This document shows positions 13,201-60,231 of a stretch of 64,000 nt of DNA, piece by piece. The DNA is from Arabidopsis thaliana. Lineage: Eukaryota > Streptophyta > Magnoliopsida > Brassicales > Brassicaceae. Positions within the stretch are counted from its first letter, which is position 1; each line of letters begins with the position of its first letter. Where the stretch lies: positions 19,099,835 through 19,163,834 of the forward strand of contig NC_003076.8 of assembly GCF_000001735.4 (NCBI RefSeq), read 5' to 3'. The notes beneath the pieces were generated by a model that searched no databases, had not been told where the DNA came from, and worked only from the letters and a program-made list of their open reading frames with translations. Position numbers and translations under genes: made by a program.

Positions 13201-14747
13201 GATATATAAATTGGATTTGTATACTAATAAATTATATTTGATGAATTTGTCGAAATTAATAATTATAAGAGTCATATGTCAAAACAATATATGAGGAGGC
13301 AAATAAGTAATTTTATTTTTAAAAAATTAATTTTATAAATATTTGGAAATAGATATTTTATGTACACAAACATAATTAGGTAGGTTTTTTTTTGTTTTTT
13401 TTTTGAAAAAGAATTAGGTAGGTTTTAGTTCGGAGATTGAAACACAAACAAGTGGGTTTCGGTATCATCGGAGCCTTACGCAAGTATGCGACGTCAACTT
13501 GTTAAAATATTTGCTTGCACGTATTCCTTTGCTCGTGTAAGGTGTATCACACTCCAAACCCCTCTTATTGCATTCCCATCAATCAATAAATTATTATACT
13601 GTTTTATATAGTTTAACGAATTTGAGTATGCAAACTCTTTTATTTTTTTGGCAATTGCTAGTCTACCGAAACTTGTAAAGTATTCATTCATAGGTAATTT
13701 ACACCGCAAGTTTAAAAAAGTTGGCTAATCAATATTTCAAAATCTCTGTCTACAAATATTTACTTGAATGATTAACACACACCCACGCATATAACTATAT
13801 ATAAGTATAACATATTTGTTTGACAAAAATGAAATAAATGACAGTTTTGCGGTGTAACCGTATAACCAACAATTGGGACGGTGATGGTGACTCGGTGGTG
13901 TTAATGGTGTGGACTTTAAAGTTCGTTTGAGGACGTTGTAACGTACCAAATATATCACTATTTTAAGAAGCGTATTTCTAAAACTTAAAAATGCAAACTT
14001 TTCAAATATCCTAATGAAAGGATATTTACAAAAAGTATACATAAAAGAACAGAAAATTAACTGACACAATATATTAATACTTATGCAGTACATTAGTAAA
14101 AAAAATTACATCATTATTCTTATGCCTTTTCATTTTTTATCTTTCATCTTAAAATTGGTTAACAATTAAATTACCGAGTTAAATAAAACTTTATCTAGAG
14201 GTAGTGATAATATTAATCTTATTGGAAGAGATTCATATTTTGCACGTTATAGTAACTTGTTAATTTTTTTATATGATATAATAAATAAGTTAAGACGGTA
14301 ACTATAAATATATCACATAAATTATAACTTATGACGATACAAAATAACTTAGCATGATATAATTATAAACTTATTGATATAAATATTTTGTTATCATGTT
14401 AACCTAATAAGTATTACCGAGATATTTGTTATCATGTTATTCTGATAATACGTTATCTGCTAACTATTCTGATTCATGTATTTTTTACATGATTATTAAG
14501 TCGCAAGTCAACTTTTTTGCTTTATATGCTAAATATTTTGTTACTTTTTAATAATAATGTTATCGTCTTCGCATATATATCCGTATAATAACCATATTGT
14601 AACTATGACAATTTTGTAATTAATCCAAATATGAAAGATACTTTTGGTTTATATTTTTTTTCTCTTTCATATTTACCTAATTTTTAAATTATCTCTTCTA
14701 CTTTTTTAATTTCAACTTCTTCTAAGTATATAAATTTAATTCACCCA
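10259..14747. other. Intergenic spacer, no supported gene
   Basis: AT-rich. Contains two very short ATG frames with reasonable start context (12122-12244, 40 codons; 12635-12727, 30 codons) that I cannot support as genes, and a microinsertion at 13374-13426 listed separately. Minus-strand frames at 13494-13709 and 13737-14093 have AT-driven composition and no known domain. Confidence 0.4.
13374..13426 (-). repeat. Microinsertion: oligo-T block between 15-bp direct repeats
   Basis: The 15-mer AATTAGGTAGGTTTT occurs at 13374-13388 and again at 13412-13426, separated by 23 nt that are T-rich and end GAAAAAG. Read on the minus strand this is a short leader, a poly(A)-like run and then a target-like repeat. 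It matches the structure of several other loci in the window. Confidence 0.7.
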
Positions 14748-15308
14748 CTAGATTTTAACCCGCGGTATACCGCAGAGACAATTTATTTTTTAAATTAGTA
14801 TATATAAAAATTTACAAATTAAATCTATTTATTTTTATTTTATAGTTTACAATTGTTATTAAATAACATCCTGCCAAACCCGTCTCGCCAAATCCGTCCC
14901 GTAAAAAAAACCCGCCGTACACCACTAATTTAAATATATAATTAAAATAAATATTTTATGGGATTGCAATTGTATTTTAGTTTGTCAAACAAATATTTGT
15001 TTTAAATAGTTGCCAAAATCTAGTTCAAATTTTGGAGAAAAAAGATTTATTGGATAGATAAAGAATGTATTTAGGTGTGTTTTGTTCATTTTAAGGGATT
15101 GCAATTATATTTTTGTTTGTCAAATATTTATTGTTTTAAATAGTTGCTGAATACTATGTGCGTGACATATGAGATTGGAATATATTTGGAATATTTTTAG
15201 TTTGTTAATCAAATTATTTCTGGAAAAAAATCAATAATTAAAATGGCAGTCATTGTAAATAAGTCTAAACTTCATAATTTATTTAACAAAATAGCTGCAT
15301 TATATAGA
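14748..15308 (-). mobile_element. Non-autonomous Helitron, copy 2
   Basis: Inverse-oriented relative of the 1725-2273 element. Its 3' end (CTAG, 14748-14751) abuts an A at 14747, equal to CTAG|T on the element strand. The subterminal stem-loop is CCGCGG TATA CCGCAG (14760-14775), with one mismatch. The 5' end is placed at the GA of 15307-15308 (TCTATATAATGC on the element strand), but the neighbouring base is not the expected A, so this end may have eroded. An internal segment of about 55 nt (GGGATTGCAATT... ) is repeated about 137 nt apart (14959 and 15096). No transposition protein is encoded. Confidence 0.82.
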
Positions 15309-17008
15309 CAATAAAATGACTTTTTTTTTCCTTTGTTTCTCATATATTGATAGATCACATAATTTATTGAATTAATATATACAAACAAGAGTTCCACTAA
15401 TTCTTATTTGTTATTTCGATTCCACTATTCAACAAGGTCCACACTATTATTAGAAATTCAAACTATACTTACCATAAATATCGAAATCACAACTAGTCAG
15501 TCACACACCTATTCTAACATTAGAAAAACACCGACCTCATTGCACCACTATTATTTGTAGTTGTACCTCACAAAGCACCTCCCTCAAAGTCTTCGCAAAA
15601 ACGTCACCCACCACCACGAAAATTCATAACCAAATAAAACGACAATTTTGTAATTCTTGATTTAATAAAAAAATTAAGTAAAAAACAATATTCTTACCAT
15701 TTTGTCGCCATATAATAAGAAGAAGAGAGACACAACACAACACAAGTAGTAGAAGTGGTGTAGTGATTACGGTGTAACGCTTATTCCAAAAACCCCACGC
15801 GCGTAGGGCCCACCTCTCCCCCGAATCCCCATGATTTTCTTTAACGTCTCTCGAGTGCTGGTGGGACCCTTGTTTTATGGAACCCTGATGTAGTTTTATG
15901 TACTTTCATTTGTGACCCTTATACTTCTGTTAATTACAATCTTGCCGCTATTTTGTTGCTTCCTTCTTGTTTTTGTTACCTTAAAACTTTTGTTTGAATG
16001 CCTTCAGAAAAAGTTTACTTCTCTTTAGACGGATGTGATCACTTGTTCAATGTAACACCACCGTAAGTTACAGTGGTTAAAATGTCTGGTAGAATTATAG
16101 CTGTATATATTTATTGATCTCTAAAAAATTAGCTTGTAGAAATTATTGTCTTTAAATTGTTAGTAGGATCCATCCAACTACTACTTAAAAAAATCTGATT
16201 AGTATAAGATATATTTATGATTAATAGAAAAATAATTTTTGTACAAGAGATTAATAACTAAGATAGTAAAATTCTATCATTTCATTTCTAAAACCAAAAT
16301 AGATGAAATTAATAAATAAATAATTATTGATTTCATGTGTGTTTAAACAATTTTTTTTTGTATCACATTATGTAAAGTAACAAGTTATCAATTTCATAAA
16401 AAAATATTTACGATAATTACATTGTTTTCTTAATTTTTTTGTCGACTATATATCTTAAAAATAATGTTAAAAATGCAACAATTTTGACAGTAATTCCTAA
16501 TCATACGAAAATTTTCAAACTTTGCAACTTCTTCATGTATTATTGCATTGACAATCAGTTAATAATTTTACTTTAATAATGTTGTCTAAGTAAAAAAGAA
16601 AATTAAAAGTTAATAATTGAACTAAAAAGTGAATGTCGAAAAAAAACATTTAACTTTTTTACTTAGCTCTCTCGAAAGTTCCTCAAAAACCGAAGGACGA
16701 GTAAGTCACGAAAAAGACCATTTTGTAACGCCTCTCTATCAATTATTCCTCTATGTGTCAATAAAGTATATTTCTCAAAAGGAAAACAACAAAAATGGTT
16801 TTCGATTTCTTGTACTTTCAAAAATAGCATAAAAGCCAATAGATTCTCCTCTCTCAAAGTTTCGCCCCTTGTTTTTACTTTCTCTCTCTTAAACCCCAAA
16901 AAAAAAAAAAAGATCTTTTGCTATAAAATCCCACTTCACACTTTCTTCACATCAACAACAAAACCTCTCTCTCTTTCACTTTCTCTCTAAAAACCAGAAA
17001 AAAAAAAA
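15309..17008. other. Upstream region of the FLZ gene
   Basis: A GC-richer island at 15775-15870 holds two GGNCCCAC-type TCP-factor sites in opposite orientation (15806-15813 and 15861-15868) and a CGCGCG core. The proximal region ends in a pyrimidine-rich leader (about 16960-16990) just before the ATG. The frames at 16629-16899 are shadows without domain content. Confidence 0.5.
15806..15868. promoter_or_regulatory. Pair of class I TCP-type binding sites
   Basis: GGGCCCAC at 15806-15813 and GTGGGACC (reverse complement GGTCCCAC) at 15861-15868 both fit GGNCCCAC. They lie about 1.15 kb upstream of the FLZ start codon in an otherwise AT-rich stretch. Function is inferred from consensus only. 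Confidence 0.4.
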
Positions 17009-17805: not shown

Positions 17806-18848
17806 TTAAAAATATCTGGGAACTTTGAGAATTATTATAATTAATTAGGTTAAGAAAAAAATAAGCTATATTGTATCTAACGCTATGAAGCTGGTTTTGG
17901 ATCCTCTCTCTTTCTCTCGAGATCTTAAGGATCTTTTAAAACTTTAGCTTCAAGTCTTGGGAAAAAGATGAAGAAGCTAAAGATCCTTTAATTTTCTTTT
18001 CTTTTTTTGTAAGAAAAAAATAGTTTCTTGACATGAAATTTTGGGAGTATGAGAAGAGAAAATGTAAATGCCTATGTGAATTATAATAGTCCATGGCATG
18101 TTTGAGTTATATTTTTTCTTTTGTTTTTAGATTTCGGTATCAATGTCTTTCGAGGGATATACAGATGTTAAATCAAATTTTAATATGTTGAAATATGAGA
18201 ATATTATACGAGAAAACAAGAGTAAGCATTTTTTTTTAACTTGCTATATAGTTTTTTTTTTGGTAAGTACTTGCTATATAGTTTAAATGACGTATTTGTG
18301 ATTTGATATAAGATTGAGCAATAGTTTGAAATTGATTCTTTTTGTGGTAAGATTTGGTGACTTGCGAAAAGTGGGAAATAAAGGTATAAAATATCTTTTT
18401 CCTTCAAATGCTTTTGATAGTACAGTTTTCTTTTTCTTCACGAAATCGGTAGTACAATATTTTCTGAAACAAATAATTAGATATCTTTTTTGATTATCAG
18501 TGGACCAGAAACTCAAATAAATTGAAGTATAAATATATATATATATATATTAAAATAAGATTTGTAGAATGTAATAATGCTTAAAACGTATAAAGTTTTC
18601 ATGATAAATTCCAAACAACAACATTGCATTTGCATTCGTACATAGAAAACTTTGGCTAAAACGTTACGCTATCAACATCAAAACACTCTCATAAAACTTG
18701 ATCTCAATGATTCTCATTCACCGTATTGAATTTTATTTACAAAACACACAATAAGATACATTTTCTCTACTAATCTCACAATAAACCAACAAATTGCATA
18801 AACTTATTTATAATATATAAACTTGCAAAAAAACTTCTAAACTCAAAA
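17806..18848. other. Convergent 3' regions of FLZ and PBL19
   Basis: The two flanking genes converge here. It holds their 3' UTRs, an AT microsatellite (about 18533-18550) and the microinsertion at 18239-18284. The minus-strand frames at 18204-18516 look like AT-rich shadows. Confidence 0.5.
18239..18284 (-). repeat. Microinsertion: T6 + TGGTAAGT between 16-bp direct repeats
   Basis: The 16-mer ACTTGCTATATAGTTT is present at 18239-18254 and 18269-18284, separated by 14 nt (six T then TGGTAAGT). On the minus strand it reads leader ACTTACC, then poly(A), then the second repeat: the layout of a target-primed retroposed insertion with only its tail remaining. Confidence 0.78.
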
Positions 18849-22645: not shown

Positions 22646-22992
22646 CAAAATAAAGTGAACAAAAAAAATCAAACTATGCACTCATATTTGCAGAGGCATA
22701 ATAATTTATGATCATCTGTTTTAATACATTTGCCAATTCCTTTCCATAACTGCAAGCACAACGCGGTACACGAGCCAGCACCACAATCAGTTTCCGATAA
22801 AAACTTTTGACATATTGCGTTTTGTCCTTGAATCTCATTCACCATTGATCCTGTAAAAGTAATATTTAAAACACAAACACAAAGTTAGTTTTCATGGTAG
22901 TAAAACTACATGATTTTATAACTGAATTAGAGATGGTTAAAAAAACCTAGAATAAGGATGATGTAGACAAAAAGAAAGGTGGATTTAGTCAT
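22646..22992 (-). CDS. Defensin-like (LCR-type) secreted cysteine-rich peptide, copy 1
   Basis: Two exons on the minus strand: 22992-22947 (46 nt, start of a signal peptide, [16 protein letters not shown]) and from 22850 to the stop at about 22646, with a 96-nt intron. The mature part has eight cysteines spaced C-x8-C-x4-C-x3-C-x9-C-x9-C-x-C-x3-C with the GAGSC block, the pattern of the LCR/PCP-A-like family of defensin-like peptides. Such peptides are secreted; many act in reproduction or defence (family knowledge, not shown here). It forms a tandem pair with the gene at 23672. Too short for most gene finders. Probably one of the LCR genes around At5g47075/47077; I do not assign the number. 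Confidence 0.88.
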
Positions 22993-23072
22993 TGTATGAT
23001 AATTGGAGTTTACAAAAATAATGAGAATAACGGTACTATATAATGAAATATCACATAGAAAGACACACACAC

Positions 23073-23074
<2 letters not shown>

Positions 23075-23106
<32 letters not shown>
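23075..23106. repeat. AT microsatellite in defensin-like promoter, copy 1
   Basis: About 16 AT units, 83 bp upstream of the start codon at 22992. A tract lies at the same distance upstream of the gene at 60578, and a shortened one upstream of the gene at 23945. Confidence 0.9.
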
Positions 23107-23109
<3 letters not shown>

Positions 23110-23144
23110 TATATTATCATTTTTGATTTTTTTCTCTTTGTGTA

Positions 23145-23227
23145 TATATGTTACTAAAAAAATATGGATAGTTTTTAGTAACATATATATTTTTGATAGT
23201 ATCCATATGTTTTTTAGTAACATATAT
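23145..23227. repeat. Inverted repeat (hairpin) upstream of defensin-like copy 1
   Basis: Left arm 23145-23170 (TATATGTTACTAAAA...ATGGATA) and right arm 23200-23227 are reverse complements with about one mismatch and a loop of about 29 nt. The loop itself holds a further copy of the TTTTTAGTAACATATA motif. It sits about 150 bp upstream of the start codon and is kept in the second tandem unit. Confidence 0.75.
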
Positions 23228-23671
23228 ACATAAGTGGAATGATACTTAAAAGATAAAGGATAAGTACAAAATTAAAATTGATTAATACGAAAGTAGGTCA
23301 ATAATTCAGATGGTTAACCACAACAACATAATATTAATGATGATGATAAAGTTGAATATGGATGATGATGTAAATTTATGAAAAAAAAAATAAACTTTTA
23401 TATATATAGACTTTGGTTTAAAAATTTTCCGGCCTATTGAATATCAAATACCTAAAAGTCAATTAAACGAATAAAAGATTTAAAGTAATATATATCTAAC
23501 TAATTCTTCTGAATTTTTTCTTTTTGAATAAACAATTTCTTATAAGTTGTAACAAATCTTTAATAGTTTTATGTAGTACGATGATAATGTATTACAATGA
23601 TTATTTTATGGATTATAATTATTTTAGTTGATGATGATTTATAGATGTCAAAATAAAGTGAACAAAAGAAA

Positions 23672-23945: not shown

Positions 23946-24066
23946 TTTATGATAATTTGAGATTACAAAATAGTGAGAGTAGTAGTACTGTATAATGCAA
24001 TATCACACAGAGAGAGACACACATATATATATCTACGTATGTATATTATCATTTTTGATATAATGG

Positions 24067-24137
24067 TAGTAAAAAAATATGGATAGTTTTTAGTAACAAA
24101 TATATTTTTTATAGTATCCATATGTTTTCTTAGTAAC
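24067..24137. repeat. Inverted repeat (hairpin) upstream of defensin-like copy 2
   Basis: Arms 24067-24085 (AGTAAAAAAATATGGATA core) and 24115-24137 pair with few mismatches. It is homologous to the hairpin at 23145-23227 and lies about 120 bp upstream of the start codon. Confidence 0.7.
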
Positions 24138-24315
24138 ATATATATATATACAAGTGGAAAGTATCAATTTGATATAAAGCTAGTCAAGTTTAGACAACAA
24201 AAACTAGTCAAACAAGATAATAGAATTTGTTTTTAGATATTTATTATGAGTTTTAAAAATATTAGTGACTGCTTTACAAACAAGTAAAGATAAATATTAT
24301 TATATTTTGTTCTTG

Positions 24316-24366
24316 ATCAAATTAATATTTTGTGCCGGTAGGAAAAAAATCAAATTAATATTTTGT
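24316..24366 (+). repeat. Microinsertion: GCCGGTAGG + A6 between 18-bp direct repeats
   Basis: The 18-mer ATCAAATTAATATTTTGT is at 24316-24333 and 24349-24366. The 15 nt between read GCCGGTAGGAAAAAA, so the poly(A) end directly abuts the downstream repeat, as in target-primed retroposition. This copy is on the plus strand. Confidence 0.8.
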
Positions 24367-24380
24367 TGTTTTTCATTTTA

Positions 24381-26563: not shown

Positions 26564-27439
26564 GATTCTAAAAATACCTGATAAATCTCTCTCTTACAGC
26601 AGCTATTGTACAACTTTCATCGGCATGTAATCGCCGGTGAGAGATTGAGAAATCGACGGCGATTACCTTGAGCTCTAGGGTTTTGCTTCTTCTTTTATTT
26701 TATTTTTAGCTTTTGTCGAATCTTGTTCTTTCGCGTTTCGCAACTAGTCTGTTTCGTACAGAGAAAGATTATTATTTTATTTTTTGGTCACCGTTTAATT
26801 TTTGATTTGAAAAAAAATTATAGGGGTAAAATGGGAAATAGAGAAATAAAGAGCTCCCGGAGACGAGGGAGTGAATCGGTAGCTAAGCTAGCCACTAGAG
26901 AGAAAGTAGTGGGAGAGATGGGTCGAATCGAACTAACCACTAACTTCTGGTTCAACACGTAGCATTTCACTGCACAGCAACGACCGCTCTTGTTTCTTTA
27001 ATTGCCATTTTGCCAATGTTGCCCACATTTGTTTTTAGAAATATGCTCACTTAACAAGATAGACATAAATTACTTACATAAAAGAATAAAAAATTTTGTA
27101 TTATTTCTTTTGTCTTTTTAATAACATAGTTGGCACATACATTATTACAATATTTTAAGATTTTTTTTTACAGTTTACTAATGATAATCTTTCATGTCAC
27201 GTATATTATTAGATTTTTTTTTGATAATCTTTCAGTTTTTCTTGCTGTAATTTGTTTTAAAAATGACCGATTTGTCTTTTAACCAATTCATCATCCAAAA
27301 CATCAATTAGTGGTTTAAATGGCCCAAGAAAGCCCAACAGGTGATGAACACCGGCAAAGTCTTGTCACGTGACCAGCACATGAACGAGACGATTTACATC
27401 TTTCTTTAGTCAGTCGGTCGAGTCCGAGAGAGGAGAACA
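26564..27439. promoter_or_regulatory. Bidirectional promoter between CKB1 and the CCDC97-like gene
   Basis: The two start codons are 876 bp apart and diverge. A G-box (CACGTG, 27366-27371) lies 69 bp upstream of the right-hand ATG. An imperfect 13-bp direct repeat (TGATAATCTTTCA) brackets a T-rich insert at 27182-27234. Confidence 0.6.
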
Positions 27440-42177: not shown

Positions 42178-45100
42178 GCAAAGAGTGGCAAAGAAAATAA
42201 AACAAGACATTTGTGGTGACAACAGTACTGTTTTTTTTTTCTTGGTGATATTGACCACATTTCTGATCCTTAATTATTTGATAAACAGTTTATAGCGATT
42301 AAGTGGTCCAAAGTTTCATCATGTGAATTGAAAAACTAGGGTGCGAACTCCTCTAGCCACAATTGCAACTTGTGTTTATAGTTGTTATAGCCACAATTGA
42401 TGCCTTAAATTGTAAAAGTATATGGTTTTATATGAATATGATTTTGTAAATATGGCTTAAGTAGGATTTGTTCTTTTCCTATTCTAAAGCTTTCACAATT
42501 AGATGTTAAGAGCTGGTTTTGTTTTTAGCTGCTTAAATCGCATTAGGCTAAGAATAAAAGGCACACAAAAAGTGAAGATTCTAGAACTGATTCCTTAGTT
42601 TGTTATAGATAGTAAGTATTGTTCAAACGAGAATCCAATTTTAATGTAGAGGACTTGCATATAGGATGAAACTAATATATTCGTGAATGAAATTCCAGAA
42701 TCACTATGGTTGGAGTCTTGGAGAAGAACTACATGAAAATACAAAAACTGTAGAACTTCTTTTTCTTGGTAAACATTATTCGGATAAAAAGGAATAAAAG
42801 AGCTTGGACCTATTATTTTAGCTATTTATTTATTTATTTAGTGTTGTCATTTTGTGTTGTAGTGGTTGTGTTTTATTAGCATGAATGTATGAATTTTAAG
42901 CAGATCATCATATGATATACTTTGTTCTTATTTAAGCCACACTACTCGTGCATTACCTTTTCTTTTATTTAACCTTATCTCATCCATTAGTTCCATCGCA
43001 TTGTCTCCACCGTCCGATTCTATCATCATTACATAATTGATAATTCTATCAAAAACTTTGTTAAGAAATTAGCACATAGTCCACTTTACGGTCACGAGTT
43101 TTTCACCGTTTCTGTTAATTTTTCACTCTGTAATTCCGACACGGTGGATATATAGTTACATAGATATTGTATAACAGAGATGATGACAATTTTTAAAAAT
43201 ATACAAATAGATAAATTTTGTTTTTGGTAATTTAACAAAAGTTTTGTTATGTAACTAAATTTGTTTTATTGGTCATCTACAAGCAGTCCAATGGAAGGTT
43301 CAAAATTTTATATATATAAACATTACAAAATTATTTGACGTTGTAATAATAGAAAAATAATGATATTTCTATCTTGCGAAAGTGCTATTATTTGATTGAG
43401 ACTCCACATTATATTTGGAGTTACGTAACAATAATCACCGTTTTCTACAATTTGCTTTTTTCCTCTAAATAAAAAAAAAACCTAATTTTTTTGTTACATC
43501 ACATCGTGAGTAACATGCTTTAATTTCACCAAACCTCAAAATTATGTGGATCTTAGTCGTGGATGATTGAATATTTTAATATCTATAGTTAAAAGAGACT
43601 TGGAATATAAAAATACGTGTAGACACCGAGAAATGTACCAAAAATTAGTTCACTAATCACATTCACAAACCACAAAGGTGGGGGCCCATCACGACAAATA
43701 CTTTAACCAAATCAAAAGAGTTGTGTCCATGATCGTCGTCGTCATTACGGCCGGTGACTTCATAAACCATTTCATTTTGTATTGTTTCTTTCATATACAA
43801 AAATTTATATTAATTTACCAACGTCATACTTTTTTTTTACGTCATACTTTAGAATAAGTTAAACCTAATCGGCTAATCTTATTAACCTAGTCTTATCTTT
43901 TTATCAAAAGACAATCAATTATTCACTACATCAAATATTTAAACTTGGAACTTTAAAAAGTGGACAAAAACTAATTTTGGCCTTTTTCAAATATTTATTT
44001 CTTGGTTTAACACTTTAAATAAAATTTTAATACAAAAATCCTTGTGATACAGTAAACATTAAAAATAAAGTACATTTAGTCATTTACCTAATGTAAAACA
44101 GATAAATGAGATTGACCAATAGAATAAGTTGTACATAGGTAAGTAACATAATACTTACATTTTATTTTCAATATAGATGTTGCAAAAGAAAGTGTTTTTA
44201 GTTAGAATAGGTTAAAATTTCAGTCATTAGTATTTTTATTTTATTCTACTATTGCACTATTTTATCATAATATTTTCAACCACATTTATCTTCTTATAAT
44301 AAATATATCCATTGTCACAATTAAAAGTAAATGATCTTCTTTGGAATATGAAAAGAAAAAACAAACAAGGAAGAAAAAGTCTATAGTCAACAGGAAGGAA
44401 CCATAAGGCACAAGCAATAATATTCCTCCAGCCATCATCGTCACTTTCTAACCATTAGAAGTTTTTCTCTAAATTAAATTATTGAGATATCATTTCAATT
44501 AATTAAAAATGTATAATAATATTTTTAAAAATGGAAATAAATTATGCTCAAAGCATTTGGGGAGGTTTAGACACATGGAAACACAATTAAAATAGAATAG
44601 CTAATATTAGTTAACTTAATATATTATGTGTAATAGTGTTATTAATTTCCTACATCAACCAGATTGAAAAATAAACATTTTAGGTAACTAAGTAATTTGA
44701 AAAATCTAAATCTAAGTAATCATACAAAAATTAATATGAAAAAGCAAAGTAAAGGAGAGGAAGCTGAAACATATTAACTTTCCATTGTATACAAATACAA
44801 AACCATTTTTACATTAACACAAAAACAATCAGTCTCTTTCTCTAAACCTTCACCAATTTCTCTCTCTCTCTCTCTTGCCCTTTTACACAGCCATTTGTTA
44901 GATTCCTCTCTCAATAAGCCTCTCTTCTCTTTTCTATTGGAGTTTTTGCATTAGACTGATTAGCTCAAAGCAAAACCCATAAACCAAAATCTTCTCTTTG
45001 TGTTCTTGTTTTTTTCATTTCTCCAATTTTTCTTTGTGGAGGAGGTTTTTCACTTTTTGTTTTTCTGGGTTTTTATTGGCTTTCTTCTGCAAAAACCATA

Positions 45101-47469: not shown

Positions 47470-50160
47470 AAGAAGATAAAGTTTCTCAAACTCATTGGTT
47501 AAACTCATTGTGTTTCTCAGAACAAAGACAGACTTTTTAAGATTATATATATATATATATATCTCTGTTGAAGAGAAAACTCTTTTGCTCTTTAGGCTTT
47601 TCTGAGAAAATGTGGCCAAATGAGATTTTTATGCATTAGAAATTGCAATTTGCAGATATAAAAAAAAAGGAATGATTTTTATGTAAGGGCTCTCTTTGGT
47701 GGTCTTACTATATATGTCTTCTTGTTCTTACTAAACTCGACGAACAAGAAAATTTCGTTTTCTTGGAAGTTTAATTTTGTGCTTTTTTATTTTGTATAAG
47801 AGGAGAAAATATTTAGTAATGCAAAAATAAAGCAATAAATCTAAGTATATAGATTTTTATTGTATTATTTATACGCACTTATATACTTGCATAGGAAATG
47901 AATATGACTGACAATACGGAGAGGAAAAAATAATAGAAGAAGAATTGAACAAAATGTTATAATAAATGATAAAGCAAAAAAAATTGAACAATTATTAAAA
48001 ATCAATTTGACAGAAAGTTTTTGAAATTAAAATTGAAGTCTTAAAAATTTACAATACTAATTTCATTTCTAATTTAAAGGTTCTTTTATTGATTTAATTT
48101 ATAAGTTTTATGTAAAATATATAATTATTTCTATTAATTTAAATAATATTTTAGTATATGTTAATCTGAGCACTTTATTTTAAATGGTACATTTAATATG
48201 ATTATCATATGTAAATATATCTTTAATTATTTAACTATCAATATTAGTTTAAAATAAAGTCATAACATAAATTTAACTTGATTTTTATATAAAAGTAAGT
48301 TTTCTATGAGAAAATAAAAAAGTTCTATTGATATAAATTGTAATTCTTATCATGAATATCAAATTTCCAATTTATGTTCCTAATTGTACATCTTCAATGA
48401 AATCGTCGTTTATTTATTTATACAAAGATCCTCTTTATCATGAGATGATCTTCTCCACATTCCCTAGACCTTCGGGAGAAATGTTATTAAAATGATTTTT
48501 TTTTTCAGCTTAGTCAAAACAAATATTATTCTTATCAAAATGTAATTTCTAAAAATATACTTGGCTATTTTTAAGAGAAACTTATTATAAATATAATGTA
48601 ATATTTAGCCTATTTTAATAATCCAAATTAAAAATGTCAGAATAATATGTATCTTAAGACCGAAAATATTTTACATTTTGATACGAAATGCAACAGTGGA
48701 GAAAAGACTTCTAACTCCTAAGAATGTAGTTTAAAATTGTGATTAGTTTTTTTTATTTTACATGTTAAAAAGGCTGAGAGAACTAATTTTGTAAATTATC
48801 TTGTTGTCTTTCCTCATGTAACGGAGAAGAAAGAGGTTTTTTGGCAAGTCTTTGATCCATCTTTTGCATACAATTTGAGTTTTTATTTTGAAGGAAATTG
48901 AAGTTAAGGGCATAGAAGACTAATTAGTAGTTACCTTTTTTTTTTTTTGTGGGCAAACAATTAGTAGTTACCTAGTTAACAAAGAATTATGTTCGTTGGA
49001 GCATCAATGTCTATTGGGTTACACATAGTATAATGAATCTCTAACGATGCTAACACAAGGATTAGGGACGTGGAGGAATACTGGAGCCGCTAAAGTCAAA
49101 ATTTCATCGAAGGATGTAACATTATAGCGATTGATACAACAACAAAAAAAAACTAGCAATTGTTACTGTCGTAGTTGTTATAAGAGAACCATCGACTTAT
49201 AGCACACATAAGACATTTAAAGAAGCAGGCGGAATTCATGCCCTCTCAAAGTTCATGACTTAAACTGTGATTGCAGTTGGGCTTAACAACATAAAAATAG
49301 TTGCGAAGAGATAAATGAAAATAGTTGAGAAGAATGTTCGAAAGGGAAGATAACTTTTGAAAAATCTATGTAATGAGATAGATGGCAAAAGCAGATCACA
49401 AATACAATCGTCAAGTCAAAGAAAGAAATGGAGAAAATGGAAAATGGTTTGAGAACCTAAAGGAGATGACAAACTTTAGACTTGCGTTGATGACACAATG
49501 AGTCTAAAGTTTTAAATCATGGAAAAACATTCTAAAGCTTTGACTAGTGGTGTAGTGCTAATGCTCAATTGGCTCTTGCTTGGCAAACTTACCTTTCATA
49601 TAAATATTTTGTAACCGGAAGCGTATTACACTTTCTTATGGAGGTTTGTTTGTTTGCTACCTTATCAATCTCATCAATTAGAACAACACGATTTGCTTTT
49701 TTAAAAAATAAGTATATTTTGTATGTTAGGTATAAGCATTTAGCCATTTACATACTTGCATACGAAATAAAAAGTTTGTGACTTATTCTCCTAAAAATAA
49801 GTGTGAAAGAAACTTCTCTATTTTTTCCAACTTCTAATAGTAAAACACTCTTTTTATATTATGTCTTTACGTATACGTATATATAGTAAGATGTAATAAC
49901 TTCTTTTTTTCTTTTCATTTCCAATGAAACCAGCAAAAGCATGAGCGTGTTTGCATTATTTATTTACTAATTAAAGTAAGATTACTCTTTTCTTACTTTG
50001 ATATAACAATTTTGGTTTTTATCTAAAAGTTACATAAAACAATCACACGACTTAATGGTGTAGGCCCTTAATAACAGAAAGCTATGTGTAAATTACATTT
50101 CTATAAAACAGAGAACATTTAATAGGAACAGACTAACCAATAAAATAATAAAAACTCAAA
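47470..50160. other. Intergenic spacer between GATA27 and the first SRA gene
   Basis: An AT microsatellite lies near 47545-47563 in the GATA27 3' UTR. Contains the microinsertion at 48922-48973. A stretch near 49060-49560 has slightly less AT but no supported frame. No RNA gene seen. Confidence 0.5.
48922..48973 (-). repeat. Microinsertion: poly(T) + GTGGGCAAAC between 15-bp direct repeats
   Basis: AATTAGTAGTTACCT is present at 48922-48936 and 48959-48973. The 22 nt between are a T run followed by GTGGGCAAAC. On the minus strand: GTTTGCCCAC, poly(A), repeat. The clearest retroposition-like layout in the window together with 24316. Confidence 0.82.
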
Positions 50161-50968: not shown

Positions 50969-50972
50969 AAGA

Positions 50973-51959: not shown

Positions 51960-52584
51960 TATTAGTATAAAATAAAAACTGATGATGATGGTATAATAAG
52001 ATTTGAGGGAAAAAAAAATATTATTGAATTGTAGAGCGTTTTTGTTAAATAAAAATAGAGGACTAAAGCTTCTTTTTTATTTTATTTTATTATTGTAATA
52101 TATTCATCAAAAGAAAAGTGAAAGGTATTAATAAGTGGAAGTCCTAACAATAACTAATAAGTGAAAGGTTATAAATCAGACTTTTAAGTGTAGAGCTAAC
52201 TGGTTTTTTTTTTTGTAATTATCAAATTACCTTAAAGTTAATATATATAAATTTAAAATATCAATACTTTCTTACACTATTAGAAACAGATGGAGAAAGA
52301 TTCTGGTAAGGTGTCAGATTTCTATTTACTGTGTTTTTGGACAAAAAAACAAAGGTTCGAGTCAATTTACTGTCGTGAAAAAATGTCTATTTATTACTAT
52401 ATTGTAATCTCTTTTTTTTTTTTTCCTTCGACTATATTGTAATCTCTTTGATATATATGTGGTAGCCATTCAAAAGAATAAGAAAAAAATTTAATTGCTA
52501 TATTGTGATTTTGGATTCTAGATTTTCCGATAGCTAAATATAAAACATGTATTCTCAGAATCTCGCTGCAATATTATATTAAGA
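51960..52584. other. 3' region of first SRA gene
   Basis: AT-rich spacer with the 3' UTR and a microinsertion at 52396-52449. No gene. Confidence 0.55.
52396..52449 (-). repeat. Microinsertion: T-run + CCTTCG between 19-bp direct repeats
   Basis: ACTATATTGTAATCTCTTT occurs at 52396-52414 and 52431-52449. The 16 nt between are T-rich and end CCTTCG. On the minus strand: CGAAGG, poly(A), repeat. Confidence 0.8.
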
Positions 52585-53911
52585 CTAGATTTTAACCCGC
52601 AGTACACCGTGGGGCTATAATTTTTAGAAAAAATCAAAATGTAATATACTTAATTGATTAACATTATTATATAACCTATTATTTTGTATTTTTTGAATTT
52701 AATATGTGGTACAACGGGCAAATTGTTTTTATTAGTATAGGCAATAATGTTAACTTTTACGATCTTTTTTGTATTAAAGTTAATAATTTTATATAAGTAC
52801 AATAAAAAAACTAATGCTGATAAAATATTAAAATAAGATTTAAACCGTGTTATTACTTTTGGTTGATGATATTATAAATATGTATTAATATCGATCCAAA
52901 CCCGTCCCACCATATAACTCTCATCAAATATTACTTTTTATAAGTTTAAATATTATTAATGTTTATAAAGTTAAAATATTTCAATAATATATTTCAAAAA
53001 TTAATACTTTTTTGCCTTTTATGTAATGACATTTTTTGTAATTCTTACTAAAACAAAATAAGTCTACAAAATGTAATTCAATATTTTAAATGCAGATAAT
53101 GTTATAAATAACTATTTAGTTTAATCATAATTTGTAATTGATATGTACTTGAGTTTTTGGATTACCTGTATTTCACGTCATTTAATAGCCTAAATTGGGT
53201 AGTTTTGTAACATTATTTGAAACAATAATATTATCTTAATACATGTACATTTTACTAACTGAAAAATATGAGATTGATTATTTTTATAACACGGAAAATA
53301 TGAGATAGATTTTTTATATTACACTGAAAATGAATGATTCAAAACTAAAAATCATAGTGTAATATAGTTTAGCGTAGAAAATAATTAAAAGGATTTTATT
53401 TATTTATTTTGTTTCCTAAATTTTAGTTTAGACTCAGAAAACAATTGTTTAACTTCCTTAGAAGATGATAAACATATATGGAAGATTTGAATCTCTATTC
53501 ATATATATTTAAAAATCAGTAATGTCAATATAATTAAAGGATAGATTAGAAGAAATTCTCTTGAATGCTAAATAATTCATTTGTTATTTATAAACGAAAT
53601 ATTAAATGCTGTAAAAAATGAAATATTAAATAAATATGGAAAGAAAATCCTACCTTAAAAGATTGTGTATTATTGAAATCAATTTTTATTACAGCAAATT
53701 AAAACCAAAAATTAATAAATACTTAAGAGAAATTTTAGGAATGATTTCGTTTGAAATAATGGTGGAGTTAATATAGAGAGATTTTAGGCAATATTTTTGT
53801 TAGGTAAATATTTGATTTAAAATTTCTGCATAAATTCAGTGGCATTGAGTCGTAAATAAGTCCAAGTCCAAGATTTATTTGTTAAAATGGCTGCAAAAAT
53901 GTATATATAGA
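52585..53911 (-). mobile_element. Non-autonomous Helitron, copy 3
   Basis: A 1327-bp relative of the 1725 and 14748 elements in minus orientation. CTAG (52585-52588) abuts A at 52584; the stem (CCCGC..GTGGGG) is imperfect but keeps pairing potential. The far end is GA at 53910-53911 followed by T at 53912, so A|T insertion holds at both ends. Interior near 53840-53905 (GTAAATAAGTCC... , ATGGCTGCAAAAATG) matches copy 1. It is more than twice the length of the other two, so extra internal sequence was gained. No coding region for Rep/helicase. Confidence 0.84.
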
Positions 53912-56896
53912 TTTGCCTCATAATCAAAACCTTTTTACTGCTTAAAAACAAAACAAAAAAAATCCTTTTAAAAACAAATGTAAAAGTCCTTTTTATTCTA
54001 ATTAAATCTACCGAGTATAAAAGTTTTTTTTTCCAAAAATGTAAATATTTCCTAAAAGTGAAAACGATTTAGCTTTACAATCTATGATTATAAACCTATA
54101 AAGATGGAAATATACTTTACTTTACATATATCCATTATGGAAGTTTGTTTACTTACAAAAAATATGAATCCCTTTGGGAAATGTTTTTACACAACATATT
54201 ATTTTCCCCACATAAATGCACATTATGAATGGAAATAAAAAGTAAATTTTATATTATTTTTCTTATCAATTAAGTAATTTCCAAATTTGAATTTAAAGCA
54301 TGATTTATATGGAAAGCCAATAACTTTAACAAAAACAATATTTGGAAAAATAATATTTCATTAATTAAGATTATCTTCTTCCACTATAAAAAGAGTTTTA
54401 ATTGCATAGAATCATTCACTTCATAAATATTTAGAGCAGTCACATTTGAAATCTCTCCTCTCTTATTCTTATTCTTATTCTTATTCTTATTCTCCTAAAC
54501 GTGTATCTATCTATGGAGCTAATCAGTCATACAAGTTGATACATATTTTCTTAATAACGTCGAGTCGGGTAAGTAACTTTTGTTTTTTTTCTTAATATCA
54601 TAGAATGAAAGATTCTAAACTATCGCTAGAGTTTTCTATAAATTTTTTAGATTATTTTTTTTCATAATCTCTTAAAAGTTTTCAAACAATCTCTTTATTT
54701 TAATGATATTTTCATGATTTTATTTTGTGAAGAAAAGTCTATAAAATCATATACCAATAATATAATATTTTAATTCATCAACAATCAATTTTTTTTTTAA
54801 TAACACAAAACTTTTATTGATTTATGAATCCTTTTATTGTGCACTCATTGATGTAGATGATTATTTTTCTTTTCAACTTATTTTCAAACAAATCCTTAAT
54901 AGTTTTTAGATTTAGGCCGTGAATGGTTGCGGTTTTTAAAATGGTTTTACTTAGTTTTTTTCATATTCTATTTTACAATCATTCATAAATTAGAAAAAGT
55001 GGTTCCCTAAAATAGAGAATTTAGATTTTGAGAGTTTTTATAGATTTGGAAGCACTCTTCAAAAAACTTTTAAGAGATTTTCAGTGTTTGTCATGAATGT
55101 GACTATATTTCTCTTTTGACTAACTTCTAATTTTGTTTAGTTAATTATTTAGTTTCTTGCAAAATCCAAAAGCTGAAATTTAAAAACCAAAATCTAACGT
55201 CAACAAAAAAAATCTCAAAACCAAAAACTAAAATCTTAAAACCATAAACATTCATAGCTTTAAACCAGTGTTCTAGAAAGAGACATAAACTTAGACGACA
55301 ACCGCCTAAACTTGCATATGACTCGTTTTGGTGTATTTTACTAATTTTCAACTAAATTTGTCTACATATATATATACATTGTTATAAACGTTTATAAATC
55401 GTTGGATATAAATTAAATAAATATTTTATCTAAATTGTGTTTACAAATTAAAACTTTTCTATTATAATAGATATTTTTACATAATTTTATGTATAATATC
55501 ATATTTATAAATATGTTATAAATGCTTAAACCAAGTAAAATTGTCTAGGCCTCTATTAGATGTTTTAGGTACATGAACTAGGTAAACGCCTGTGTAGCGT
55601 TTAACGCTTTTTTAAACATGTTTTCACTTTTTTTAATTCTTTTGTACATATTCGTTTTCTGGTTTCTATTAGATGTTTTAGGTGGATGCACTAGGTCACC
55701 GTCGACTTAGCTTCTTAGAACAAATTTTTCTATTTGTTTTTAACATATTACTTTTGTGGTTTCTATTTATTATACCTAAATAATATAGTAAATAAATAAA
55801 CATTAAAACCTAAAAACTATTGCCCAATAGTTGAATAAAAATAGGAAAACCCACCACATAGTATAATACTAAATGCAAATAACTATTTATAGCAAAAGAA
55901 ATTTGAAATTTCTATAACTATAACTAGTAATAAAGTAGATGAGAACAAAACTTAAATGCTATGGAAAAAACTTACACCACCACTACTAACGCTCCACGTA
56001 ATCATTAAAGTTAATTAGTCGCTAATCATTCGTTTTGGGTATTTAATATTTTAAAGTTATAAGTTATAACCGAAACAATTAACGTAGTTAATGGCTCCAT
56101 TGAAAAACAGATTTAAAACTCAAACACACACAATTAACCAACTTAAGTACTGTTCAGTGACTCATCGTTTTTCGAGCCTCAGAGATTATCACAAGAAGAA
56201 GAATCCAGAGTCCGCCGGGAAAAAAAAAAAAAAAAACAATAAGAAGATTACAAAAACAAAGAATTACTCCGTTCATCTTCGCTAGGTTCTGTTTCAGGTT
56301 CAGTGAATTTTTTTTGGTTCTTCTCTTCTTCCAGTGTATACTTTGTTCCCTGCTCTGTATTTCATAGTTTTCTTCATTTCTGTTCCTTGTTTTTTTTTTT
56401 TTTGCGAATTCTTCGTTTAAAGTTCGCTTTTTCTGACAAATTTATACACCTTTTTCGTTTTTTTCTGAGACTCAAGCATTCTTTGATCTTTCGTTTTCTT
56501 GAATTTTGTGTTTTGTAGTTGAAATTGCTTCGAACTCTCTGGAACTTTAGGGTTTGAGATCGATTTTCCTAATAACGGTTCGTGTTTTTTCAATCTCGAT
56601 GCTTTTACAGAAAATAACGGTTCGAATTTCAAAATTCAAAATTTTCACTCTCCGTCATCTTCGTCTTTTACCATTTGTGTTATCCCTAATTGTTACAGTT
56701 TTAAGATTTAGCCCTAGTTTTACTGTGTTCACACTTGCGCCGTATAAATGCTCTTACTTTAATTGTCATTTTCAGCCATAATCTTGGAATTACATTGTGG
56801 GATCTTTCTAGATTATGTGTGAGAACATAGAAGATTAAGATAGTTTCTGAATTTGGATAGATTAGTGATTTTGTGAAACAATTGTATATATGCAGG
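53912..56896. other. Spacer and 5' region of second SRA gene
   Basis: Contains a hexanucleotide repeat (TCTTAT, six units, about 54461-54492), a stretch similar to the repeat in the BI-1 paralogue's intron (about 54640-54800), and other AT-rich sequence. A putative leader exon before 56284 (ending TTCGCTAG|GTTCTG) and leader intron lead to the coding start at 56897. No other gene supported. Confidence 0.5.
54461..54492. repeat. TCTTAT hexanucleotide tandem repeat
   Basis: About five to six consecutive copies of TCTTAT seen directly. Confidence 0.8.
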
Positions 56897-58144
56897 ATGA
56901 TGATGACTCAAAGGATCTCTCCTTCTAATAAGCGTCGGAGAGTCTCTTTTGTTAGAGATTTTCCTCAATTTAGTGTTAAAGATGAAAGTGACATTGGTGG
57001 TGATGATGTTGCAACCATAAAAGAGAACTTGGATGGTAAAGAAGATAGTAACTGTGTTGGTGTCGCTTATCGCGATCACCATAGGCCTAAAGAAGAATCG
57101 TTTGATTCGATAATGAAGAAAGCTGGCTTTAATGTAGCTAATGGTAATCTTGGGAATGGAAAGTTTCCTCCATCTAAGAGGAATGTTCCTTTACCTTGTG
57201 AAGGTAAAGTGCAACCTCTTAGCGTGGAGGAAGGTATTAAACTAATGGCTTATGAAAGCCAAAGAAGACGTTGTTTTGGTAAGCCTTTGGTATCAACCAA
57301 AGTTGTGCAGAAACATAGATACTCACCTGCGAAGAAGAAGTTGAGTAATGCAACTGCGTTAAGAGTAAGACACTCACCGATGAAGAAGTTGAGTAATGCA
57401 TCAAGACTAAGAGCAAATGCTCATAGACCGACTCAACATAAAGATGAAAGACGGTCTGGAGTCCTCTCGGTTATACAACGAAACCGGCTTTCGAAAGATC
57501 TTACCCCACGCCAGAAGGTTCAAGAAGTGTTGCGTATTTTCACACTTGTGTTTGATGAGCTAGATCGTAACAAGGCAGCAAGAAGAGGTGGATCAGAGAC
57601 TGCCAAGAGCAGGATAGATTACCAAACTTGGACTATTCTGAGGGAAATGGGGATGCAAGTTAACTCTCAAAAGAGGATTGGATCAGTCCCCGGGATCAAG
57701 GTTGGAGATAAAATTCAGTTCAAAGCAGCACTCAGTGTAATCGGTCTTCATTTTGGCATCATGAGTGGGATTGACTACATGTATAAAGGAAACAAGGAAG
57801 TAGCTACAAGCATTGTTTCATCAGAAGGTAATGATTACGGGGATAGATTCATCAACGATGTGATGATCTATTGTGGTCAAGGAGGTAATATGAGGAGCAA
57901 GGATCATAAAGCAATCAAAGATCAGAAGCTTGTTGGTGGAAATTTGGCTTTAGCTAATAGCATTAAGGAAAAGACTCCGGTGCGAGTGATCCGTGGCGAA
58001 AGACGATTGGACAACAGAGGAAAGGATTATGTGTATGATGGTTTATACAGGGTGGAGAAGTATTGGGAAGAGAGGGGACCTCAAGGTAACATTTTGTTCA
58101 AGTTTAAGCTTAGAAGAACTTGTCAACCTTATGTGGACTTTTGA
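56897..58144 (+). CDS. SRA (YDG) domain protein, SUVH-derived, no SET domain (second copy)
   Basis: Single coding exon, 415 residues from the ATG at 56897. An open frame continues further up to 56873, but a TGCAG acceptor at 56891-56895 supports starting here. N-terminal lysine-rich linker with two related segments (HSPMKKLSNAS-like, about 143-180); then a SUVH-type helix (DELDRNKAARRGG) and SRA domain (about 250-412): KRIGSVPGIKVGD, GLHFGIMSGIDYM, ATSIVSSEGND, GQGGNM, GNLALANSI, VRVIRGERRLD, YVYDGLYRVEKYW. As in its neighbour, pre-SET and SET are absent. Probably binds methylated DNA; could compete with or assist SUVH proteins (inference). Probably At5g47160. Confidence 0.92.
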   Translation: MMMTQRISPSNKRRRVSFVRDFPQFSVKDESDIGGDDVATIKENLDGKEDSNCVGVAYRDHHRPKEESFDSIMKKAGFNVANGNLGNGKFPPSKRNVPLPCEGKVQPLSVEEGIKLMAYESQRRRCFGKPLVSTKVVQKHRYSPAKKKLSNATALRVRHSPMKKLSNASRLRANAHRPTQHKDERRSGVLSVIQRNRLSKDLTPRQKVQEVLRIFTLVFDELDRNKAARRGGSETAKSRIDYQTWTILREMGMQVNSQKRIGSVPGIKVGDKIQFKAALSVIGLHFGIMSGIDYMYKGNKEVATSIVSSEGNDYGDRFINDVMIYCGQGGNMRSKDHKAIKDQKLVGGNLALANSIKEKTPVRVIRGERRLDNRGKDYVYDGLYRVEKYWEERGPQGNILFKFKLRRTCQPYVDF

Positions 58145-58673
58145 AAGGGATAGTGTGAGATAATGAAACTTTAGTTTTTGGTTTTTTGGTAAGATAGTAC
58201 TTACTTAGGTCCGTGACCTGTAATATCAAACCAACTATAGTGTGGTTTAGGATAACTTTTCTTTCTGACAGTAGTAGGTTCAGGATCTTGTGTTGTACAA
58301 ATTGAATGATCCTTCTGATGTCTTCATAACTAATGATCCTTCTGTTTCTAAACTTCATAAATGTTACACCTTTTTGTTAATATTATATTCTAATGATGTA
58401 AAGTTACTTCGCAAATCTTGGATTTCTTAGTTTCATAATCCGGTAAAGCAGAAGAACTTCAATAAGTTCCTTAAACTTGTTTTTTCAGATATGGTAATAT
58501 GGGTGGAAACATGACTTTGAAACGTTTATATAGAATCCTTTCCAACATTTTAATCTAATCAGAAAAAGGCAAAATATCTAATTGGTGAGAATCCACAGCA
58601 AAATGAGAAACCTACAAGGTTTAGTCACAGACAGCTAAAAACCAAACCAAATTAAAGAAAAAAGCGCCAAAGT
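58145..58673. other. Convergent 3' region
   Basis: Second SRA gene (+) and the unknown gene (-) converge here. Only UTR-like sequence; the minus-strand frame 58110-58358 is a shadow of the SRA 3' end. Confidence 0.5.
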
Positions 58674-59126
58674 TTACGAAGGAAACTTAAAGCCCATTGA
58701 CTTCAATATCTCAACACAGCTCTGACTTTTATCAACCTTGTCCTTGTCTTCCTTAACCTTGTCACCGGAGTTTCGAAGCAGAGCTTCAATGATTTCTTTA
58801 AAAGGTATAATCTCTTCTTTCTCTTTCTCTTTCTTCTTCTTTCTTCCATCTTCTTTCCATTTCCCACCACCCCATTCGTACGACGGCTCCATCCACGGCG
58901 GCAACACTCTCCTCGCTGCTGCTTCACCGGCGACTGTTGATGTGGAACCTAATTTCTTGTCCGAAACCCTAGTTTCAATCTCTTTTGGTGGATTCAATCT
59001 CGCATCGTCAGACTCTGGTGAAGTGGGAACAGAAACCATTACGATTCCTTCTTCCGGATTCACGGGAGGAGATAAATGCCAATCTTCTAAAATCTCTGAA
59101 CTCTCTGTATCTGAACGTTTCTCCAT
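58674..59126 (-). CDS. Small unknown protein, charged
   Basis: A single-exon frame of 150 residues starting MEKRSDTESSEILEDW. It has an acidic/Pro-containing N-terminal half, a WMEPSYEWGGGKWKED segment (about 78-93) and a Lys/Glu-rich helical stretch (about 94-135) that may form a coiled coil. I do not recognise a domain. GC content and codon use are higher than the surroundings and the frame is clean, so it is probably real. Likely At5g47170. The plus-strand frame 58738-59166 is its shadow. Confidence 0.75.
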   Translation of the reverse strand: MEKRSDTESSEILEDWHLSPPVNPEEGIVMVSVPTSPESDDARLNPPKEIETRVSDKKLGSTSTVAGEAAARRVLPPWMEPSYEWGGGKWKEDGRKKKKEKEKEEIIPFKEIIEALLRNSGDKVKEDKDKVDKSQSCVEILKSMGFKFPS

Positions 59127-59200
59127 TCTAAAAAGCTTCGGAATTCGAAATCGGCGAAACTGTTAAAAAGGAAGAGACTTTCTGCTTTTCTGTTTGATTT

Positions 59201-59480
59201 GACACAATTCAGTAAACTTGTTTAGTATCGGACCTTTTTGGGCTTTATGAGCTCTAAAATTAAAATGCCTTATGGACTGTTTTGATTTGAAAGATTAGAG
59301 ACAATTCAGAGAACTTGTTTATTGTTGGACCTTTTTGGGCTTTAAAGGAAAATATGTTATGGGCTTTAACGGAATATACTTTATGGGAAAGATTAAAGAC
59401 AATCCAGAGCATTTGTTTGATATTGGACCTTTTTGGGCTTTTAAGTTGGATCTTTTGGACCCAATTCAGATTTGTTTTAT
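59201..59480. repeat. Three tandem copies of an about 98-bp repeat upstream of the unknown gene
   Basis: Units start at about 59201, 59300 and 59398; each carries an ACTTGTTTA/ATTTGTTTG stretch followed by GGACCTTTTTGGGCTTT. The array lies 75-350 bp upstream of the start codon at 59126, so it probably overlaps the promoter. Each unit has a GGGCTTT (AAAGCCC) element related to site II/telobox-associated motifs. Confidence 0.75.
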
Positions 59481-60231
59481 AATTTGGGCATTCACTTCAT
59501 TCACTTAATGATATTGATTATTTTTTTGTTAAGTACAGATTTATCATTTTTTTTTCTCAGATTTATCATTTTTAATGACTCTTGAAATCTTGTACCCAAA
59601 TTTTTTTAATAGAATCTTAAAATACATGACCTTATATCAGTATTAGATTTAAATTTTCTTTGAAAAGTTGAGAAACCAATGACGGTATTAATCTATTTTG
59701 AAAACACATGGATTTTTTTCTATATATTTATATATATAATTCATTGACGGTATTATATATATATATATATATGGTAATTTGATTCATTCATTCATTTGAA
59801 GTATGATAAAAAAAAGTTGATACACCCAAATTACACTAATTAATATCATCAATACACAACACATATAATAAATAAATATAGAAAAGATTTACGCTTTCAA
59901 AAACGAGAACCATATTCACTATTATTATTTTTCTTCAAAATAAATCTCATTAGAGATTGTCATTTTTGCCTATCATATTCATATATTGGATGAAACTCCA
60001 AAGTTATCTAATCTTGACAATGATACTAGATATCCTCTCTAGGAGTATGAATGATGATGTGATTTCATGAGAAGAGAGAAAATAAAAATCAATACAAAGA
60101 TTTGTTTCTGGACTAGTTTGAGATAATTGAGATCGACTCATCACATTTCATATCAGAATGGATTGCAAATAAATATCTATTTTATTAATTAGTTAATGAT
60201 AATTAATAGATAGGAAAAGAAAATTTTAAAT
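59481..60231. other. Spacer with microinsertion
   Basis: AT-rich; holds an AT microsatellite (about 59753-59772) and the microinsertion at 59536-59573. Right end is the 3' region of the third defensin-like gene. Confidence 0.5.
59536..59573 (-). repeat. Microinsertion: T4CT between 16-bp direct repeats
   Basis: CAGATTTATCATTTTT is at 59536-59551 and 59558-59573, with TTTTCT between them. Structure similar to other loci but with almost no unique insert. Confidence 0.6.

Follow-up and report, generated by a model that had tools for sequence, protein, structure and literature searches.

Short A/T-rich inserts enclosed by exact direct repeats form a general class in the Arabidopsis thaliana genome, found in the 64,000-nucleotide stretch of DNA analyzed here (the window) and beyond it. 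They far exceed chance expectation, A/T runs are commoner in the inserts than in their flanks, the boundary on the A side carries a one-sided target motif, and at one site a paralog is empty. On balance, we lean towards the reading that the A-tailed members are mostly abortive, tail-only events of target-primed reverse transcription. Many A-rich snippets may be the remains of retrotransposition halted almost at once.

The seven loci of the window (Table 1) had been singled out in a sequence-only reading, and their coordinates, exact repeats and insert structure were all borne out. We confirm the shared layout as a real observation: an exact direct repeat of 12–19 bp, an A/T-rich insert of 6–23 nt, and a second copy of the repeat. 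Duplications of this length fit those of LINE-type insertion (target-site duplications of ~7–20 bp), and a few extra bases inside a direct duplication are likewise what a staggered break with filler would leave. On the element strand the A-run abuts the downstream repeat copy at six of the seven loci; the remaining one, 43821, has an insert of A6 only and thus no definable polarity. The weaker cases are 13374, 43821 and 59536, where the leader is A/T-rich, two bases long or absent, and the target site of 24316 is a poor fit to the motif described below.

Table 1 The seven loci of the window (positions in the window; inserts and target sites on the element strand)
Locus	Strand	First repeat	Insert	Second repeat	Repeat (bp)	Insert (nt)	Insert structure	Target site	Genome search
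13374..13426	-	13374-13388	13389-13411	13412-13426	15	23	CTTTTTC A10 C A5	CT/AAAA	201-bp query, second copy not found
18239..18284	-	18239-18254	18255-18268	18269-18284	16	14	ACTTACC A7	TT/AAAC	flanks searched, paralog not found
24316..24366	+	24316-24333	24334-24348	24349-24366	18	15	GCCGGTAGG A6	TG/ATCA	no site-spanning match
43821..43850	-	43821-43832	43833-43838	43839-43850	12	6	A6 only	CT/AAAG	
48922..48973	-	48922-48936	48937-48958	48959-48973	15	22	GTTTGCCCAC A12	CT/AGGT	paralog not found
52396..52449	-	52396-52414	52415-52430	52431-52449	19	16	CGAAGG A10	TC/AAAG	dispersed-repeat matches start ~120 bp downstream; none spans the site
59536..59573	-	59536-59551	59552-59557	59558-59573	16	6	AG A4	TT/AAAA	no site-spanning match

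The window was scanned for exact direct repeats of at least 12 bp around an insert of 4–40 nt, with a complexity filter, and compared with three types of surrogate (25 replicates each). We found 22 repeats, 10 of them with an A/T run. The surrogate means were 0.32–0.40 and 0.04–0.08, with replicate maxima of 3 and 1, so that the shuffled controls proposed in the sequence-only reading revealed a large excess (22 versus ~0.4 overall, 10 versus ~0.05 with an A/T run). Chance juxtaposition in AT-rich DNA would draw on ample material, as the window is 68% A+T and holds 270 A/T runs of six or more; the surrogates nevertheless yield far too few A-run cases, and we regard this explanation as refuted, with a negligible probability. 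An AT-rich or fragile neighborhood is also rejected, because A/T runs are 4–6 times commoner in the inserts than in neighboring segments: 10/23 inserts versus 25/230 flank segments in the window (Fisher P = 2e-4), and 10/39 versus 18/390 (Fisher P = 5e-5) in an independent sample, 260 kb of the same genome outside the stretch behind the earlier reading.

The majority of the short insert-bearing direct repeats that end abruptly have no A-tract (13/23 in the window, 26/39 outside). Abruptness was tested with random draws, and borderline cases vary between runs (56571: P = 0.10, then 0.035). The 10 A-tract cases of the window compare with 3.2 expected by length (P = 0.008) and with 5.4 expected from the number of A/T runs (P = 0.11). 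Since the window is rich in such cases, the rate of seven in 64 kb, from which thousands of copies genome-wide had been projected, is overstated about two- to threefold, although the order of magnitude holds; our estimate is ~6,000 copies (CI 3,200–10,200). Three of four 10-kb stretches taken next to the window read as all N; totals of 290 or 354 kb include these 30 kb without letters, which leaves 260 kb as the effective independent sample.

In the reading that we favor, an L1-type LINE endonuclease would nick a T/purine-rich target (N T / R R R R on the element strand, near TT/AAAA), and the freed pyrimidine-rich 3' end would prime on an RNA's poly(A) tail. Reverse transcriptase would copy this tail, go no more than a few bases past it and then stop, and the second strand would be cut 12–20 bp away, fill-in producing the target duplication. 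What we infer in this scheme is the enzyme, the template RNA and the sequence of events. A stronger version, which we put forward only tentatively, is that the tail-only scar could be the commonest product of LINE-type priming here, with thousands of body-less poly(A) stubs carrying target duplications.

The boundary on the A side was scored against TT/AAAA, the null being simulated random insertions that allow the A-run boundary to slide. In the independent sample, the 8 cases of forward or all-A type scored 4.00 versus 2.38 simulated (P = 0.0002), and all 13 A-tract cases, mirror cases included, scored 3.46 versus 2.26; the 10 window cases scored 3.80 versus 2.53. TT/AAAA was fixed beforehand; T/RRRR, formulated after inspection of the site contexts, gave 3.63 versus a null of 2.35 (P = 0.0007) in the 8/18 cases with at most one leading A. 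Imperfect or low-complexity repeats account for six of the 18 cases (24090, 33572, 55176, L012:410, L013:193 and L015:9501), and the T/RRRR means rise to 4.1 and 4.6 when these are removed by hand. The signal is absent at the far end of the target-site duplication (T/RRRR 2.39), in the 39 repeats without an A-tract (2.33 in one orientation, 2.56 in the other) and in the 3 mirror cases (2.33 versus a null of 2.34). This endonuclease-like preference on the A side, seen also in the independent sample, supports LINE-type priming.

The same boundaries bear on tandem duplication with slippage, in which an 18–30 bp unit including an A/T run is duplicated and the run then expands in one copy. Such a history directly fits 43821, which reads equally well as tandem duplication plus run expansion, and is plausible for 59536, 13374 and L021:1265, where near-pure runs extend the repeat's own A-run. 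It leaves the leaders at 18239, 24316, 48922 and 52396 unexplained, and is unlikely for the 8/18 boundaries just described because they offer at most one leading A. At the one site compared, L014:8147, the corresponding position in the sister paralog holds no run beyond TTT, and a pre-existing run is therefore not seen. As an account of the class, we judge slippage quite improbable.

The main rival is repair of staggered breaks (paired nicks), in which both ends left by offset nicks are filled in and joining adds bases, sometimes as a homopolymer, so that the A-tract cases would be one end of a general range of short tandem duplications with filler. Duplications with non-A filler are abundant in the same scan (39/62 abrupt cases), and the A-tract and non-A classes show no significant difference in the length of repeats or inserts (Mann–Whitney P = 0.60 and 0.37), which also counts against tail-only priming. 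In rice, short duplicative insertions of 10–1000 bp are ascribed to patch-mediated or paired-nick break repair (Vaughn and Bennetzen 2014, as outlined in the review PMC7407515). They are alike in that a short duplication encloses few filler bases, and the non-A majority of our scan probably belongs with them. We would expect neither A-runs nor a one-sided T/RRRR boundary from such repair, and both the enrichment of A/T runs in the inserts and the restriction of the motif to the A side, with none in the non-A class, argue against staggered breaks as the source of the A-tract cases. Locally templated filler was sought by comparing five window leaders with 2 kb of flank, and no shared word was significantly longer than those of shuffled leaders (P 0.21–0.90), a comparison of low power with leaders of 6–10 nt. 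Overall, we hold staggered-break repair to be a serious but rather unlikely explanation; if it is true, the A-tract bias of the filler and the one-sided motif need an explanation of their own.

Weak polarity outside the window is a point for this rival. The sequence-only reading had noted that in its four clearest cases the poly(A) end adjoins the downstream repeat, and the window agrees (9:0). The independent 260 kb gives 7:3 (P = 0.34; pooled 16:3), falling to 3:3 at a score of 14 or more; a run-anchored scan of independent DNA gives 6:4, and the strictest anchored scan, over 250 kb outside the window, 0:2. The polarity is thus not established beyond the window, and its weakness there weighs against tail-only priming.

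Genome searches identified a site-spanning paralog for 2/15 A-tract sites, with no spanning match for six of the loci in Table 1. At L014:8147, outside the window, the paralog is an empty site of the kind that had been sought as a mark of insertion. It is compatible with staggered-break repair to the same degree, and this sole empty site belongs to a case of reversed polarity, with the A-run 1 nt off and on the wrong side. At 24090 in the window the paralogous copy also has the repeat pair, which is therefore an older shared repeat. Because of this shared pair and the 0:2 polarity, we give the tail-only reading less confidence. In a blastn search with all 72 scanned repeats in the sampled DNA, requiring both flanks, L014:8147 was the sole hit apart from coding tandem repeats in L015. 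The L013 query met a dispersed element, and 40 of 680 candidates were scored, so that matches to the rest of this query may have escaped.

The inserts themselves were compared with known elements. The leaders of 24316 and 48922, each with A5, occur once in the genome, and a common SINE or LINE 3' end is rejected as the source of these two; the other leaders are too short to assign, and no LINE, SINE or mRNA 3' end was recognized. The four clear leaders are GC-rich (20/32), whereas Arabidopsis 3' UTR ends are AT-rich. Single-copy, GC-rich leaders speak against tail-only priming. The earlier proposal of LINE-type priming is partly supported: the excess stands, and the A-side motif, a test which that reading had not put forward, adds to it; the polarity is not established outside the window, and the two leaders searched lend no support to a link with LINE or SINE 3' ends.

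Several known systems are comparable. Poly(A) microsatellites seeded by retroposon tails are known mainly from mammals, and in the known cases an element body precedes the run; here too an A-run arises with a target duplication, but the body is absent or a few nucleotides long. LINE-1 (L1-type) insertions with 5' truncation, which arise by target-primed reverse transcription, share the 12–20 bp target duplication, the TT/AAAA-like nick side, severe truncation and, in the clear cases, the downstream A-tail; the cases here differ in copying almost only the tail. According to a maize study (PMC2774510), LINEs were sought there as blocks between target duplications with a simple-repeat end, usually poly A. 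A Brassica rapa study (PMC10368883) describes a truncated 130-bp LINE-1 insertion that had no target duplication; its sites, CT/AAAG and GT/AAGG, resemble CT/AAAG and GT/AAGA here.

If the tail-only reading is true, the stubs would be an unannotated genome-wide record of LINE endonuclease activity in a compact plant genome, and initiation of reverse transcription could be measured separately from its completion. They would also explain the origin of many poly(A/T) tracts and of small duplications at splice junctions such as L014:8147. In the stronger version, they would escape repeat annotation, mark LINE endonuclease cuts and rank among the chief sources of new poly(A/T) tracts, exon-adjacent ones included.

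Repeats adjacent to an A-run also enclose longer inserts, with 4 forward and 1 mirror case at 41–150 nt and 2 forward and 1 mirror at 151–600 nt. The target motif is absent from the six forward candidates (95–286 nt; mean 2.8), a further difference from truncated LINE-1 insertions that counts against tail-only priming, and a size continuum with longer A-tailed inserts is not supported. A seventh longer case, with a 1113-nt insert, sits between tandem gene copies in L014.

The layout described by the sequence-only reading, a 12–19 bp direct repeat interrupted by a 6–23 nt oligo-A/T insert, is present at all seven of the loci it named. The excess over shuffled controls that it anticipated is also found. 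In the window (C5:19099835-19163834 of the 119.66-Mb genome of seven contigs), 22 exact direct repeats of at least 12 bp enclose inserts of 4–40 nt, and 10 of them carry an A/T run ≥6 nt long. Surrogates of the window average 0.32–0.40 and 0.04–0.08, respectively (order-3 Markov, order-5 Markov and a local shuffle preserving homopolymer runs; 25 replicates each). Comparison DNA sampled across the genome (250 kb, of which C1 supplied 200 kb) holds 40 repeats and 8 with a run, vs 1.25 and 0.125 in 8 shuffles. A further 40 kb was taken beside the window, where three of the four stretches are all N, giving an effective independent sample of 260 kb. Unbroken A/T runs of at least 6 occur in 10/23 inserts vs 25/230 equal-length flank segments in the window (P = 2e-4) and in 10/39 vs 18/390 in the independent sample (P = 5e-5), the latter figure being unaffected by the first choice of loci. 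The A-tract belongs to the insert, and as an observation the short A-tract insertion layout is confirmed.

A uniform scan that tolerated mismatches, applied a complexity filter and kept the best of overlapping repeats returned 72 repeats, 62 of them abrupt as defined by an insert-vs-flank likeness test. Repeat length and insert length do not differ significantly between the A and non-A classes. Given these counts and like lengths, the A-tract cases are one subset of a common class, the short duplications with filler.

Repeats from the uniform scan by location and A-tract arrangement (forward, A-run flush with the downstream repeat copy on the element strand; mirror, the opposite)
Class	Location	n	Forward	Mirror	Internal	All-A	Without A-tract
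Abrupt	Window	23	9			1	13
Abrupt	Outside window	39	7	3	2	1	26
Non-abrupt (insert like a flank), excluded	Window	5	1	1			3
Non-abrupt (insert like a flank), excluded	Outside window	5	1				4

A clean member of the non-A class is a perfect 33-bp direct repeat with a 15-nt insert lacking an A-run (CTTACTTAGCAAAGT; window 60861-60941). Window ~1725-2275 is a copy of a ~577-bp dispersed element with at least 38 further copies elsewhere; 15 bp past its end begins a 12-bp repeat (window 2290) whose insert contains A6. Window 52571-52900 is the start of a dispersed repeat akin to many genomic places (at least 46 matches). Several long repeats ~2.1–2.3 kb apart in comparison stretch L008 represent local tandem duplication.

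The expected poly(A)-end polarity holds in the window, where forward:mirror among abrupt cases is 9:0 (P = 0.004), but is not established outside it (7:3, P = 0.34; 3:3 at score ≥14). Window and outside ratios are 12:2 and 6:4 in a run-anchored scan with mismatches (two outside sites counted on both sides), 8:0 and 4:3 by end composition, and 6:3 and 0:2 when the run must be flush with an exact 10-mer. Two comparison sites narrowly miss a forward call: at L014:8147 a single T follows the run, and L013:1641 (A14 G A9 GAAG) is classed as internal; L014:2703 is a clear mirror case. Outside the window, the retroposition reading is not carried by polarity alone. Window 27182-27234 is a candidate for opposite polarity (13-bp repeat, 27-nt insert, T8 against the downstream copy), and its flank-like insert keeps it from the abrupt counts.

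At the tail side of an insertion, L1-type LINE endonucleases leave sites that resemble TT/AAAA when read on the element strand. A-side sites include CT/AAAA, TT/AAAC, CT/AAAG, CT/AGGT and TT/AAAA in the window and GT/AAGA, AT/GAAG and AT/AAGA in the independent sample. A 130-bp Brassica rapa LINE-1 insertion is reported with sites CT/AAAG and GT/AAGG and a 40-bp deletion in place of target duplication (PMC10368883). Because a flush A-run makes leading As partly automatic, the same inserts were placed at random sites (local GC ≤42%) with identical boundary sliding in 4000 simulations. The TT/AAAA score is 3.80 vs 2.53 simulated in the window (P = 0.0017), 4.00 vs 2.38 in the 8 cases from the independent sample that are forward or all-A (P = 0.0002, the lowest value that 4000 simulations can return) and 3.46 vs 2.26 in all 13 independent A-tract cases (P = 0.0002). 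For T/RRRR, a motif worded after the sites were seen, scores are 3.80 vs 2.73 (window) and 4.38 vs 2.60 (independent), and 3.63 vs 2.35 in the 8 of 18 cases with at most one leading A (P = 0.0007). T at -1 gives only a weak signal by itself (0.67 vs 0.46 in the pooled cases, P = 0.07). At the opposite boundary of these A-tract repeats the T/RRRR score is 2.39, an observed value with no simulated counterpart, and the motif signal is absent from the 39 repeats without an A-tract (2.33 in one orientation, 2.56 in the other) and the 3 mirror cases (2.33 vs null 2.34). Priming at a nick is best supported by this target preference, which is confined to the A side.

Leaders, the short non-A pieces ahead of the A-run, are GC-rich at the four clear window loci (20/32), and five chosen by eye outside are not (9/29). 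The suggested link to SINE/LINE families was not borne out for the two leaders searched genome-wide: each occurs once only, so no element family was identified. Six longer A-tailed inserts lack the target motif.

Genome searches with the flanks of 15 A-tract sites found a spanning paralog at 2, with a divided outcome for empty sites: L014:8147 is empty in its tandem paralog, but at window 24090 both copies share the repeat pair. The latter is an older shared repeat because its duplicate carries the same pair; it lies in a local duplication (window 23089-23239 and 24023-24159, 79% identity, separated by ~900 bp), each copy of which contains short TTTTTAGTAACATATATA-like repeats. L014:8147 is at the apparent end of an intron in a gene with an MSP domain (a 39-residue piece upstream matches Pfam PF00635 at E = 6.7e-6); the gene reads TGTCTCCAACCTAGTGATCA, ATTTTTTT, TGTCTCCAACCTAGTGGTCA. 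Its tandem paralog (~80% identical) has a single repeat copy and no run above TTT there; two more paralogs have the exon start in single copy, with introns that cannot be aligned. Once one copy and the insert are taken out, the alignment with the tandem paralog has no gap in the repeat or the downstream flank, and its score rises from 84 to 127 or 132; a 3-nt gap persists upstream of the repeat. Since the paralogs are single-copy and the tandem paralog has no long run, repeat and run probably arrived together, as judged from these alignments. The 20-bp duplication and T-run insertion (L014 8147-8194) span the apparent 3' splice junction, leaving two acceptor-region copies.

This empty site fits both leading explanations. 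It suits duplication at a staggered break repaired with filler equally well, an origin we consider possible but rather unlikely. The retroposition reading gains from the target-preference test with its flat controls, on a basis of few cases in one genome, and abortive target-primed reverse transcription copying only the tail is the explanation towards which we lean.

The proposal of thousands of copies genome-wide agrees with scaling from the sample, which is mostly one chromosome: 13 abrupt A-tract cases of all polarities per 260 kb give ~6,000 (95% CI 3,200–10,200), and restricting the count to the 8 that are forward or all-A gives ~3,700 by the same arithmetic. A-tract cases are two to three times denser in the window than in the sample.
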